Shown piece by piece: positions 45,455 through 63,013 of a stretch of DNA of 64,000 nt. The stretch comes from Shewanella glacialimarina. GTDB taxonomy: Bacteria > Pseudomonadota > Gammaproteobacteria > Enterobacterales > Shewanellaceae. Numbering within the stretch: position 1 is the stretch's first letter; each line of letters opens with the position of its first letter. The notes below the pieces were generated by a model. It searched no databases, was not told the origin of the DNA, and saw only the letters and a program-made list of their open reading frames with translations. The stretch is from assembly GCF_020511155.1 (NCBI RefSeq), contig NZ_CP041216.1:248001-312000 (forward strand). The letters are read 5' to 3'. The position numbers were made by a program, and so were the translations under genes.

Positions 45455-46819
45455 TTAAATGGGAATGTTTAATTTGATATGCAGTCCATTAGGCTTGTTA
45501 TTCAACGCTTTAATATCCCCATTATGGGCTTGAATTGCCGCTTGAGTAATTGCCAGGCCTAACCCCCAGCCACCACTGATTCTATCTCGTGCGTTATCTG
45601 GACGATAAAATGGTCTAAAAATCGCTTCTAATTCATGCTCATCAATCCCTGGCCCATCATCAATAATAGAGATAACAATTGAGTGACTCTGCTGGGTGGC
45701 TTCGATTGAAATTTGGCTGGCAGCATAACGAATGGCATTACGTAACACGTTTTCAATTGCGCGGCACAAATGCTTTGGATAATGCTCAAACGCAAGGCTG
45801 TCATCTATATGAATATGCAACTGCTTGTTTTGTTGCTCTGCCTCAAACTCTGCATCATCGAGCACTTGGCTCAAGGTTTCGCTTAATTCGGCATAAATTT
45901 TTATTTCGCTGGCATTTAGTGTTACTCGAGATAACGTCAGTAACTCACCGATTAAGTCATCTAATTGGTTGGCTTCATATTCTATGCGGGTTAATTCGGT
46001 ACTGTCTTGGCCTTTTTTACGCGCCAGCGCCAAGGACAGTTTTAAGCGTGTTAGCGGTGTGCGAAGTTCGTGGGAAATGTCTCCCATTAACCGTTGCTGG
46101 TTAGTCACCATAACTTCAATTGAGTCGGCCATACTGTTGAACGTCATTGCAAGCTGGCCCATTTCATCACTTCTGCTGACGGTAGTTTTGTCGACTCGGT
46201 GCGATAAATCGCCTTTCGCGATTGCATTGGCGCTGCGTTTTAGACTATTCAGGGGTTTACCAAGATGCCAGGCGAGTAAACCACATAATATGCCTGAGAA
46301 TAGAATGGCAATAGAAGCTGTGAGTAGTTTGTTCTCAGAAAAGTAAAAGAACCAGGGTCTAGGATGGTTAGCGGGAACACGACCATAAACTTGGAAGGTT
46401 TGCTGATTAACACTGAAGGTTAAAGGGCCAAAAATAAGCTCATTTCTAAACTGATGACTAATTGGCTGCTTGGCGTCTTCTGCCATTAATAGAAACTGTC
46501 GTAATGAGCGGGGGACTTTACGGCTATTAATGACTTGACCACCGTCGTTTACAAGATACACACGTAGCGGCTTGTTTTGTCTTGAATGTTGGCGTTGTAA
46601 TTTATATAGCTTATCTGTAATGAGAATATCGGGTGATTGTTGAATGTCTTTGGCTACCGTTTGTAGCACTTGCTGTAAATGCTTTTCAATCGGTGCGCGG
46701 TCTTGATTTTGCATAATAATGGGTAGAATTAACACTAATGCAATGGTCAAAGAGCTGCATAGCCAAAAGCCAATCAATAATTTAAAGAATAAACGATTTA
46801 ATGGGTTAGTTGTACTCAT
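45455..46819 (-). CDS. cpxA: Envelope-stress sensor kinase CpxA
   Basis: Inner-membrane sensor kinase of the Cpx system, which detects misfolded envelope proteins. The 454-residue protein has a first helix near 14-36, a periplasmic domain of ~130 residues, a second helix near 165-185 (LTASIAILFSGILCGLLAW), a HAMP domain, the phospho-His in MGDISHELRTPLTRL, an N box (IENVLRNAIRYA) and a G box (GGWGLGLAITQAA). The ATG at 46819 overlaps the cpxR stop by one base (TAATG) and was chosen over an in-frame upstream start. The neighbours cpxR, cpxP and fieF confirm the name. Confidence 0.93.
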   Translation of the reverse strand: MSTTNPLNRLFFKLLIGFWLCSSLTIALVLILPIIMQNQDRAPIEKHLQQVLQTVAKDIQQSPDILITDKLYKLQRQHSRQNKPLRVYLVNDGGQVINSRKVPRSLRQFLLMAEDAKQPISHQFRNELIFGPLTFSVNQQTFQVYGRVPANHPRPWFFYFSENKLLTASIAILFSGILCGLLAWHLGKPLNSLKRSANAIAKGDLSHRVDKTTVSRSDEMGQLAMTFNSMADSIEVMVTNQQRLMGDISHELRTPLTRLKLSLALARKKGQDSTELTRIEYEANQLDDLIGELLTLSRVTLNASEIKIYAELSETLSQVLDDAEFEAEQQNKQLHIHIDDSLAFEHYPKHLCRAIENVLRNAIRYAASQISIEATQQSHSIVISIIDDGPGIDEHELEAIFRPFYRPDNARDRISGGWGLGLAITQAAIQAHNGDIKALNNKPNGLHIKLNIPI

Positions 46820-47505
46820 TAGGGGATCCAAATATAGCCCTTGCCTCGTAGAGTTTTTACCCTTGCTCGGCTATCTTTGCGCTCGGGTAATTTTTTACGC
46901 AAATTGGATAAATGCATGTCTAAACTGCGATCGAAGGGCATCAGCTTTTTACCCAATACACTTTCACTTAACGAGTCTTTGGTGACTAACTCACCAGAAT
47001 TAGCAACTAAGTTAAGCAGTAAGCTAAACTCGGTTGATGTCAGAATAATTAATTGTTCATTGCAATAAACTTCATGGCGCTTAGGATCTAGGCGTAAGTC
47101 ACCAACTTGCACAGCATCATTGGTTGATTGCTCTTGTTCTGCATTGGACGCACGACGTAATATGGCCCGAATACGGGCGATTAATTCTCGGTCATTAAAC
47201 GGTTTTGGCAGGTAATCATCGGCGCCAATCTCCAGGCCTATAACTCGATCAATTTCATCGCCACGGGCGGTTAACATCAATACTGGAGTTTGCTTACGTT
47301 TGCGGATGCCTTTTAATACTTCAAAGCCCCCAAGTTGCGGTAGCATCACATCCAATAGAATCAGATCAAAATCAGTTTGCAATGCTTTAGTTAACCCTTC
47401 TTGACCATCATAAGCCTGGTTGACAGTAAAGCCTTCCATTTCTAATAACTGGGTTAATAATTCTGATAATCCGACATCATCGTCAACAAGTAAAATTCGA
47501 TTCAT
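46819..47505 (-). CDS. cpxR: Envelope-stress response regulator CpxR
   Basis: OmpR-family regulator of 228 residues. Start at MNRILLVDDD (47505), giving the family N-terminus; an extension of nine codons to an upstream start is unlikely. The receiver has DDD at 9-11, the phospho-Asp in LILLDVMLPQLGG, Thr in MLTARGDE and Lys in LPKPFNDREL. The winged helix includes LTSTEFSLLLNLV and RSLDMHLSNLRKKL and ends GKGYIWIP. A perfect CpxR box lies 1.7 kb away between the thioredoxin-CcdA gene and cpxP. It may be cotranscribed with the upstream thioredoxin-CcdA gene (94-bp gap). Confidence 0.94.
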   Translation of the reverse strand: MNRILLVDDDVGLSELLTQLLEMEGFTVNQAYDGQEGLTKALQTDFDLILLDVMLPQLGGFEVLKGIRKRKQTPVLMLTARGDEIDRVIGLEIGADDYLPKPFNDRELIARIRAILRRASNAEQEQSTNDAVQVGDLRLDPKRHEVYCNEQLIILTSTEFSLLLNLVANSGELVTKDSLSESVLGKKLMPFDRSLDMHLSNLRKKLPERKDSRARVKTLRGKGYIWIP

Positions 47506-47598
47506 TTCAGCCCTCAATATGCATTCAAACACTTTAGCCTATGGCGAGCTGAGATGAAATCATCATTGCACAGTTTTACATTCGTTGGTGCTTTACTG

Positions 47599-49050
47599 CT
47601 AGCCAGCAGACTTATCTTTTTTTGCCGGAGTCAGTTTGACGATAATGAAGGTCAATATGATTGACCCCACAATCAGCCCTATCGATAGCACTGGATTTTG
47701 TAATGACATGGGATTAATCACTAGCATGCTACCCAAGCCTAGCATCATAACCCCAGACATTAGCTTTAACTTTTCGCCTTCTTTTTCAGTCAGTTTTCGC
47801 TTGCCCAGTGTCATTGAAAATACAATCACTATGGTGGCTAAAGGGATGACGTAAACCACGTTGTAAGCGATCAAATAAAGATAACGCTCCATGACATCCA
47901 GGTTAGAAATGGACAGCACTGAAGTGTAAATCATTGGAAAACCCGCAGTACACAATAACTCGTAAGCATTCGCCAAAATAGCCAATACTGATGAGCCGAT
48001 AATCATGGTCGGTAATGAACTGGTTTTAGACAATTTACCCATACGCTTAATAAGCGTCCCTCTATTTTCTACTGACATCGATAGACTGACATCGCCACGG
48101 CCGTAGAAGTAGTCCTTGATATTGACCCCAGCAGCAATCAAAGCCAATACTCCCGCACAGGTAATAATAATGTCGCCATCACCGCCGCCAAGTAGTTGGA
48201 ATAAATTTAACCAGGCACTCATAAAGATGAAATAAATAAATCCAGAGAAAAATACAAATATACCGCCCACCAGTAACATGCGTTTTTTACTGCCAGCATT
48301 GACCATGATGCTGAGTAAGAATAACAACACGAAAAATGCGCACGGATTAAAGGCATCAACACCTGCCAATACTACAGTTAATAGGGGTAATGACATTTGT
48401 TCAGGATGCACTGCACCAATTAAGGGAATATCCACGGGTTGAACATGTGGCTTTGAGGTGTTCGTGCTGACTGAAGTGTCTTCGGTTGCTATGCTACTGT
48501 CCATGCCACAAGTGCTAGCGTTATCTTCAACATTACTGGTATCTCCACATTTAGCAAATAAGGGCTCGGATGGTGTGTTATCTAAGGTTAGAAAGTCATC
48601 AAGTGTGTCGCCAATATTAGCTTTGCCACCTTGTTTTTGGTAACAGTCGACTAAACGCTCAATAATATATTGGCCAGTGACCTGATGGCTGTTGTAGCCA
48701 ACAATGGCTTCACCACATACCGCAAAGTAGGGCACAGATTTAGGTTCAACTCCTGTCCGCTTGCCCATTGCCATAAGTTTATCGACATTGCCAGTTTCAC
48801 TGATTAAGTAATCTTCAACCGTTATCCAATCAAATCGCTCGCCTAATGCGTCAATTAAAGGGTGAGCCTTGCGACAGTGCGGGCAGGTTTCTGACCAAAA
48901 GAAATGCAACTTAACAACTGGCTGCTCATTTTTTTGACTGTACCATAGTGAGTTATCTGCTGATGTTGAGGGGGTTATACTGGCTATGGCACTTGGCGCC
49001 AATATCAGTATATAAAGCAGTAACAGCAACTTGCTAAATAATCGATTCAT
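47599..49050 (-). CDS. Thioredoxin-CcdA fusion membrane protein
   Basis: A 483-residue fusion likely to move reducing equivalents across the inner membrane. Signal segment (1-23); a periplasmic thioredoxin-fold domain (~40-150) with the CPHC active site in FFWSETCPHCRKAH and the cis-Pro region in PKSVPYFAVCGE; a Cys-containing linker; then about six to eight membrane helices resembling CcdA/DsbD, with one conserved Cys in DAFNPCAFFVLLFLLS and the other in YELLCTAGFPMIY. Those two Cys are at the positions used by DsbD-type transporters. It sits directly upstream of cpxR and divergent from cpxP, so a role in disulfide repair during envelope stress is inferred. It is not a canonical DsbD, whose thioredoxin domain is C-terminal. 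Confidence 0.85.
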   Translation of the reverse strand: MNRLFSKLLLLLYILILAPSAIASITPSTSADNSLWYSQKNEQPVVKLHFFWSETCPHCRKAHPLIDALGERFDWITVEDYLISETGNVDKLMAMGKRTGVEPKSVPYFAVCGEAIVGYNSHQVTGQYIIERLVDCYQKQGGKANIGDTLDDFLTLDNTPSEPLFAKCGDTSNVEDNASTCGMDSSIATEDTSVSTNTSKPHVQPVDIPLIGAVHPEQMSLPLLTVVLAGVDAFNPCAFFVLLFLLSIMVNAGSKKRMLLVGGIFVFFSGFIYFIFMSAWLNLFQLLGGGDGDIIITCAGVLALIAAGVNIKDYFYGRGDVSLSMSVENRGTLIKRMGKLSKTSSLPTMIIGSSVLAILANAYELLCTAGFPMIYTSVLSISNLDVMERYLYLIAYNVVYVIPLATIVIVFSMTLGKRKLTEKEGEKLKLMSGVMMLGLGSMLVINPMSLQNPVLSIGLIVGSIILTFIIVKLTPAKKDKSAG

Positions 49051-49215
49051 AATTTATTCCAATAAAGCACTAATAGTAAGATTTTATGCCCTTATCTAAT
49101 GACTGTAATGATCAAGTTTAAATTACGTTAACTAGCTCGCATTACTGTGGTGTTTATCATCCAATATGCCAACTAGATCATCTATTTCTGGTGAAAAAGT
49201 AGTAAGAAAACATTC

Positions 49216-49230
49216 TTTACATAGCTTTAC
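49216..49230 (-). promoter_or_regulatory. Perfect CpxR box
   Basis: On the minus strand this reads GTAAA-GCTAT-GTAAA, an exact match to the CpxR consensus GTAAA-N5-GTAAA. It lies 97 bp before the cpxP start and 166 bp before the divergent thioredoxin-CcdA start, so it could act on either or both. A TTGACA at 49247-49252 may be the cpxP -35. Confidence 0.8.
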
Positions 49231-49326
49231 GCCACCTTAACCCTGATTGACATTGCATTGGGTAAACTGAGTATCAAATCTGCTGAGGCAGAAAGTAACC
49301 CCTTTTTTATACCGAGGAATTTACCA

Positions 49327-49818
49327 ATGAAAACATCATCAATCTTCAAAAAGAGTTTAGTTGCTTTAGTGGCAAGCTCAGCATTATTGGCTGGTCAGTT
49401 ATATGCAGAAGAAACCATTAGCAGTGCAGCAAAAACTGAGCAATCTAGCGTTAAAGCCGACAGACATCATGGCCATAAAGGTGGCATGCACAAAATGTTG
49501 CGCAAACTAGATTTAACAGATGCACAAAAAGTGCAATTTAAAGTGATATTTGACAAATATAAGGCTAACCGTCCAGAGCACCCAACAAAAGAGCAACGTG
49601 CAGCGCACAAAGCCGATAGGTTAGCGTTAATCACTACCGCTGGTTTTGATGAAGTTAAAGCCACTGAAATGGTTGAAGCAAAACAACAAATGCAGTTACA
49701 AAAAATGTTAACCCAGATGAAAATACAAAACGAAATTTATCAATTATTAACACCTGAACAGCAACAAACGTTTCAAGATAAATTTAACTCAGGCAAAGGC
49801 CATAAACCACACGATTAA
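49327..49818 (+). CDS. cpxP: Periplasmic CpxP/Spy-family protein
   Basis: A periplasmic feedback inhibitor of CpxA and chaperone-like adaptor. The 163-residue protein starts at the ATG at 49327, which has GAGGAA 8 bases upstream and opens a signal peptide (MKTSSIFKKSLVALVASS ... LYA). The mature part is all helical, with the two family LTxxQ motifs, LTDAQKVQF and LTPEQQQTF, and a His/Lys-rich stretch (DRHHGHKGGMHKM) that might bind metal. Cpx neighbours and the CpxR box identify it as CpxP rather than Spy. A terminator follows. Confidence 0.9.
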   Translation: MKTSSIFKKSLVALVASSALLAGQLYAEETISSAAKTEQSSVKADRHHGHKGGMHKMLRKLDLTDAQKVQFKVIFDKYKANRPEHPTKEQRAAHKADRLALITTAGFDEVKATEMVEAKQQMQLQKMLTQMKIQNEIYQLLTPEQQQTFQDKFNSGKGHKPHD

Positions 49819-60829: not shown

Positions 60830-60950
60830 AAGTAAACGTCATCATGTGGACATCATTGTTTTACATTAGTTTACTGAGTCAATAAAACTTGGTGAACAGT
60901 AATATTAAATATTAGAAGGGAATACCCTTGACCCTACCGGAGGCTTGAGA

Positions 60951-62429: not shown

Positions 62430-63013
62430 TTAAGTTATTTTTACAATTATTTACAACCTTTCTCATTCTGTTTTAACTCATGCTTTGCGAATTTCTGTTT
62501 TAAATTCAGCTAACTCGTGTGCGTTAGGATTATCCAGTTTTTTGTCATTAGTTATTGATATATATAAATAATTAAATCATATGACATTTGACTATAACTA
62601 TTCAGCCAACACTTTGTTGATATCCTTTTGTTTATTGAATAACTTGTGAGCAAGTTATCAGTAATATCAATCATTTTGTGATCCAGCATTTGCAAGCTAG
62701 CTGTTGCAATGGCGTTTTAGATCCGTAAACTTGCGCCGTATAAATGCCGAGCAATTACTCTAAAAGTGATTTTGGGTTAAAGGCAGATATAAATAACCTC
62801 AACTTGGGTTAAGGGATGAATAAGCGGGATTTAAATAGATAAATTCAGATGTTTACTCTCAAACTTGAGCTTTGCGCTGGTAATAAGGCGAACTAACGCG
62901 TCAACAGCTAGCCTATTGCAAGTAAATTCAACACAGTTAGCGGTGCAAAGAGCTGTTTGATATACATTTGTTATCCTGAGCTGAGGTTAAATACAATAAC
63001 TAAGAGAATGATA
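62430..63013. other. Intergenic region before the FadL-type gene
   Basis: 584 bp with no ORF that has a ribosome binding site. It should hold the promoter of the fadL-type gene. I do not see a sequence close to a FadR or Crp consensus that I would call. Confidence 0.45.

Follow-up and report, generated by a model that had tools for sequence, protein, structure and literature searches.

The gene at 47599..49050 on the reverse strand (−) of the window, that is, of the whole 64,000-nucleotide stretch of the Shewanella glacialimarina genome analysed here, is referred to as fus. Our verdict is that fus represents a real, widespread and unnamed DsbD-like family, and that its association with the Cpx genes is a clade-specific insertion beside an older operator. 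Given the cysteines, the predicted topology, the distribution, the phylogeny and the age of the CpxR box, the best explanation as a whole is probably that fus encodes a DsbD/CcdA-like reductive thiol-electron carrier and that the copy in the Cpx clade was inserted later. The protein is of more interest than the box.

The fus gene and its neighbours

The fus gene is a genuine gene of 483 aa, recognised by its open reading frame, its cysteines and its AF2 model. The initial annotation had placed it at 47599-49326; the open reading frame in that range is real, but the gene itself covers only 47599-49050 and the remainder is the fus-cpxP intergenic region. The encoded protein consists of a signal peptide, a CPHC thioredoxin domain (48631..48963, −), a linker with the cysteine pair C168/C181 (48508..48549, −) and a 7-TM domain with C237 and C367 (47602..48444, −). 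Downstream, as annotated, lies cpxR (46819..47508, −), which starts 90 bp past the fus stop. It is followed by cpxA (45455..46831, −), whose frame overlaps that of cpxR; cpxR was identified by family models and cpxA by its open reading frame and family models. On the other side of fus, a cpxP/Spy-family gene recognised by family models (49327..49818, +) and fieF are divergent from it.

Thioredoxin domain and linker

The thioredoxin domain spans approximately residues 30-140, with the CPHC motif at residues 56-59 (C56/C59) and V106-P107 at the predicted cis-Pro position. The domain thus has the CXXC motif on a thioredoxin fold with a cis-Pro that defines the thioredoxin superfamily. In profile searches, the N-terminal part of the protein matches thioredoxin, Grx and DsbA chains with E values as low as 6.6e-6, and in a loose family-model search it resembles thioredoxin, glutaredoxin, DsbE and DsbA. 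In the AF2 model of the full protein, the thioredoxin domain is confident, the linker is disordered (pLDDT <50), and a membrane domain follows. Foldseek matches to this model are mainly soluble thioredoxins, with a probability of ~1.0 but E values of 0.04-0.2. An N-terminal CPHC thioredoxin domain ahead of the membrane domain, as first annotated, is therefore borne out by the 483-aa reading frame, the AF2 model and the profile matches.

An alignment of 35 fus homologues from Shewanella, Ferrimonas, Paraferrimonas, Gallionella, Sulfuritalea, Thiobacillus, Nitrospirae and Nitrospinae contains C56, C59, C237 and C367 in every sequence (35/35). CPHC is present in nearly all aligned members and P107 in all of them. 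Two further cysteines are less widely conserved, C136 in 34/35 and C112 in 27/35 homologues.

The linker of the Shewanella and Ferrimonadaceae proteins is poorly conserved and ranges from ~30 to 53 residues, but it contains exactly two cysteines in 56/56 sequences (C168/C181 in the window protein). Among other lineages, three Nitrospirae members also have two linker cysteines, and the betaproteobacterial members sampled have a short linker with no cysteine. The simplest reading of this pattern is that C168/C181 may act as a flexible relay pair, and the pair suggests a distinct relay chemistry.

Membrane domain

The two membrane cysteines lie in the motifs FNPCAFF (C237) and ELLCTAGFP (C367), and their invariance agrees with the initial annotation, which had assigned both as transport cysteines. 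Conserved residues D232, N235 and E364 flank them. The AF2 model of the membrane domain alone (pTM 0.78) has seven helices, six of them in a 3+3 layout, with breaks exactly at NPC237 and LLC367TAGFP. The cytoplasmic loops carry 3, 6, 4 and 4 K/R residues and the periplasmic loops none, which fits a predicted N-out/C-in topology. In this predicted layout, C237 is in TM1 and C367 in TM4 of a 3+3 core, an arrangement like that of DsbD and CcdA.

No match to fus is found in Pfam or NCBIfam at 1e-3. PF02683 (DsbD_TM) has no match above the cut-off among 35 full-length or 47 TM-only fus sequences, and its sole match in the S. glacialimarina genome is the canonical DsbD, encoded elsewhere (L133). An hhalign comparison of fus with a narrow set of DsbD, ScsB and CcdA sequences finds nothing. 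Against a diverse DsbD/CcdA profile, the membrane domain gives a colinear match of 193-197 columns with a score of 29.6-31, in which both cysteines are paired in the same register, at a probability of only 17% (P 0.0014). For comparison with the score of 29.6, the maximum among 60 block permutations is 25.5 over 31 columns and the maximum among 20 reversed profiles is 15.8. A Foldseek search of the PDB with the model of the membrane domain returns no significant match. SfLAP (PF11139) was considered for this domain and dropped; it matches three members weakly, with an E value of 0.029 for one identified member.

The earlier label of a CcdA/DsbD-like domain is thus backed by the remote profile alignment and the predicted topology but by no family model. 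We conclude from the sequence and the structural models that fus is likely to work like CcdA and DsbD, with family membership only marginally backed by the profile alignment.

Distribution and phylogeny

In the genome survey, fus is present in 107/118 Shewanella genomes (~91%). Iron- and sulfur-oxidising bacteria and members of other lineages have the family as well, among them Betaproteobacteria, Nitrospirae and Nitrospinae; no context common to the neighbouring genes was found in these distant lineages. Within Shewanella, the copies divide by identity to the window protein. They are 70-100% identical in 22 genomes and at most 64% identical in the rest, apart from one broken copy (G433:C101:9180-10555), which is in two pieces with internal stops and whose larger piece is 70% identical. 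Two Shewanella genomes (G452 and G477) each contain two intact, diverged copies.

A survey of Cpx loci for the fusion had been proposed with the initial annotation, and the outcome is divided. The Cpx position is conserved within one Shewanella clade (22/118 genomes, and 19 named loci, which include S. frigidimarina, S. subflava and S. electrodiphila), and all 22 high-identity genomes have fus beside cpxP with the exact box present. Other Shewanella copies are away from cpx in every case checked. These unlinked copies often adjoin ohr or ahpCF, as read from open reading frames; in five Cpx-linked genomes checked, three ohr loci were read and none has fus beside ohr. In 4/22 Cpx-linked genomes, cpxR is not directly downstream of fus. 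In the named loci with this arrangement, the two are separated by 1.3-2.6 kb that hold unrelated genes and what appear to be terminators. In the S. electrodiphila group (L033, L034, L035 and L041), a cupin-like gene lies in this interval, and glyoxalase-like genes are also found there in L034.

The fus tree places the Cpx-linked clade with Paraferrimonas (99/100), and monophyly of the Shewanella sequences is rejected (AU p=0.0009). The Cpx-linked fus thus looks horizontally acquired, since it groups with Paraferrimonas and not with other Shewanella. In the tree of CpxR and CpxA, the same species nest inside Shewanella (99/97), and joining them with Paraferrimonas is only marginally rejected (p=0.056). 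The phylogenies point to a Cpx-linked fus that was acquired from, or exchanged with, a Paraferrimonas-like lineage.

CpxR box and promoters

The exact CpxR-type box GTAAA-N5-GTAAA, GTAAAGCTATGTAAA, lies at 49216..49230 (−) in the intergenic region common to fus and cpxP, as first annotated. The window contains 3 exact copies of the pattern against 0.38 expected. Genome-wide there are 24, against 27 for a reversed control pattern, so the exactness of the box alone says little. One of the other two copies in the window (60860-60874, −) is flanked by a TypA/BipA-like GTPase gene and a glnA-like gene, and the other (62440-62454, −) lies just downstream of the glnA-like gene.

The exact box is found in the cpxP intergenic region of 22/22 Cpx-linked genomes and 19/19 named loci. 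It is also found in 21/21 examined Shewanella genomes without a gene between cpxR and cpxP. Its place is therefore not due to chance, being conserved with and without fus. In the fus-less genomes, the box sits in a similar block, the cpxP side included. Because these loci carry the same box, the box, a cpxP/cpxR operator, is ancestral and older than the insertion of fus. As evidence for regulation of fus it was rejected, given its presence in the 21 genomes without fus and the genome-wide counts.

In 11 Cpx-linked loci, the spacing between the box and the cpxP promoter block is constant. The probable cpxP promoter (49247..49275, +) comprises TTGACA and a weak -10; the block is conserved in these 11 loci and the exact -10 was read from the sequence. 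The stretch from the box to fus varies in length and content, except for a conserved element, GAGCTAGTTAACGTA (49124..49138, −), which in most Cpx-linked loci precedes the start of fus by ~88 bp. A similar word is found at -89 of fus in Paraferrimonas haliotis (L042). A CRP site at this element was considered, and the resemblance is not significant in most loci. The probable fus promoter, ATTACA-N17-TAAAAT (49081..49109, −), was recognised by its match to the consensus and is mostly conserved in close Cpx-linked relatives. With this promoter, the box is ~150 bp from the likely fus start. Members of the Cpx regulon have a CpxR site at their own promoter; fus does not, at its predicted promoter position. 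Among the unlinked fus copies scanned, no exact box is found within 450 bp upstream.

Upstream of cpxR, a conserved, degenerate CpxR-box-like motif, GTAAA-N5-GCAATG, is retained (GTAAAACTGTGCAATG; 47562..47582, −). This motif points to a separate promoter for cpxRA.

Proposed function and alternatives

The best reading of the sequence and models is that fus is an overlooked DsbD-like exporter of reductant, an inner-membrane thiol-electron carrier that would work like DsbD and CcdA. Electrons from cytoplasmic thioredoxin would reduce the membrane pair C237/C367 and would then reach the CPHC domain in the periplasm, probably by way of C168/C181 in the flexible linker; the CPHC domain would in turn reduce disulfides in the envelope. 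The likeliest clients would be apocytochromes c or their thioredoxin-like helpers, or else a periplasmic peroxidase and damaged-protein substrates. In one Shewanella clade, a Paraferrimonas-related fus appears to have entered the locus at a point between cpxRA and the ancestral CpxR operator, and it seems to have carried along its own upstream element. CpxR control of fus is possible but would be secondary, since fus seems to bring this element with it. The Cpx-placed fus would illustrate, in nature, the move of a redox gene into a stress locus, in which the common box is older than the move.

A different account makes fus part of a CpxR-regulated disulfide-repair module, in which CpxR~P at the common box activates both cpxP and fus, and envelope stress therefore raises periplasmic reducing power. 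The box between the two genes in all Cpx-linked genomes and named loci and the conserved linkage of fus to cpx across that clade are consistent with it, and there is a precedent in the DsbD-class scsABCD system, which is under CpxR/CpxRA control in Salmonella (PMC11790278). The same box in genomes without fus, its spacing (constant on the side of the cpxP promoter, variable on that of fus), its distance from the likely fus promoter, the conserved element that belongs to fus and the unlinked copies without a box all argue against it, and this account is somewhat doubtful. As a general statement, the earlier proposal that the Cpx response contains its own dedicated pathway for disulfide repair is not supported: the box is older than the inserted gene, its spacing suits cpxP, and the fus copies checked in other Shewanella lie away from cpx.

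Two other alternatives concern the protein. CPHC with a Val-cis-Pro is DsbA-like, so the thioredoxin domain could be an oxidase or an isomerase. Electron flow would then be reversed, with the redox state of this domain set by the membrane domain, as in a one-piece equivalent of DsbA and DsbB. In its CPHC motif and in the cis-Pro comparison at V106-P107, the domain looks like DsbA, and a flexible cysteine pair placed between those of the thioredoxin and membrane domains is reminiscent of the flexible-loop pair C104/C130 of DsbB, whose part C168/C181 would play. Unlike those of DsbB, the membrane cysteines of fus are divided over TM1 and TM4 in the manner of CcdA and DsbD, and the remote alignment of the domain is to the DsbD/CcdA family; a reductive direction is predicted, and reversed flow is distinctly unlikely. 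It is very improbable that the membrane domain is a transporter of the LysE or metal type with a thioredoxin domain that handles cargo, for example in metal or thiol export. The conserved D232, N235 and E364 beside the cysteines and the weak PF11139 matches would suit a transporter, but both cysteines of the membrane domain are invariant and go together with CPHC, and the lineages have no conserved neighbourhood of metal genes in common.

Relation to known systems

DsbD, which is known from E. coli and of which S. glacialimarina also has a canonical copy, is among the systems nearest to fus. Like fus, DsbD has a periplasmic thioredoxin domain and a membrane cysteine pair over two helices, and it carries cytoplasmic reducing power outwards, as predicted for fus. 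In contrast to the alpha-beta-gamma arrangement of DsbD, the order in fus is reversed, with the thioredoxin domain N-terminal, and there is no alpha domain. The fus protein also differs in its lack of a PF02683 match, its linker cysteine pair and its CPHC in place of CVAC. CcdA, which works with a thioredoxin partner (ResA, CcmG or TlpA), has a six-TM core with cysteines in TM1 and TM4 like that predicted for fus. Unlike CcdA, fus has its partner fused at the N-terminus and a seventh TM; the NPCAFF and ELLCTAGFP motifs also differ, and the profile similarity is only marginal. ScsB and ScsC (scsABCD) carry out a DsbD-class reduction of a periplasmic oxidoreductase, as predicted for fus, but are separate proteins with PF02683, whereas fus is one polypeptide outside PF02683. 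In Salmonella, ScsABCD is under CpxRA (PMC11790278), and for fus CpxR control is only possible.

Shewanella oneidensis is a model for cytochrome-based extracellular electron transfer. Its fus copy (G465) lies between fccA and ohr and is, by gene order, probably SO0975. SO0975 is described as a 'conserved hypothetical inner membrane protein' in an anaerobic energy co-expression module together with CcmABC, MtrA, MtrC, OmcA, CymA, HemE and HemH (PMC2667191). In dsbD mutants of S. oneidensis, some cytochromes c still mature under anaerobic conditions; the species is stated to have no additional DsbD, CcdA or ScsB homologue, and the suppressor of dsbD loss that is named is NapB and not the fus protein (PMC8782879). 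Near-universal in Shewanella, with the right cysteines and invisible to Pfam and NCBIfam, fus is a direct candidate for the activity behind this DsbD-independent maturation. No biochemical data on the family were found in the literature searched. A broader proposal, rather unlikely in full, is that fus constitutes a third, so far unrecognised type of protein that exports thiol reductant across the membrane, distinct from DsbD/ScsB and from CcdA, whose single chain carries three cysteine pairs, in the membrane domain, the flexible linker and the CPHC thioredoxin domain. In this proposal, some of the cytochrome c maturation that does not need DsbD in Shewanella would depend on fus, and a horizontally acquired copy would have come under the Cpx envelope-stress system in one clade.

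In a wider proteobacterial set (L155, L156 and L157), proteins share with fus the architecture of a glutaredoxin or thioredoxin domain followed by an NPC membrane domain. Their motifs are NPC(A/S)MWVL and E(L/F)(L/M)C, and the identity of the membrane domains is 28-42%.
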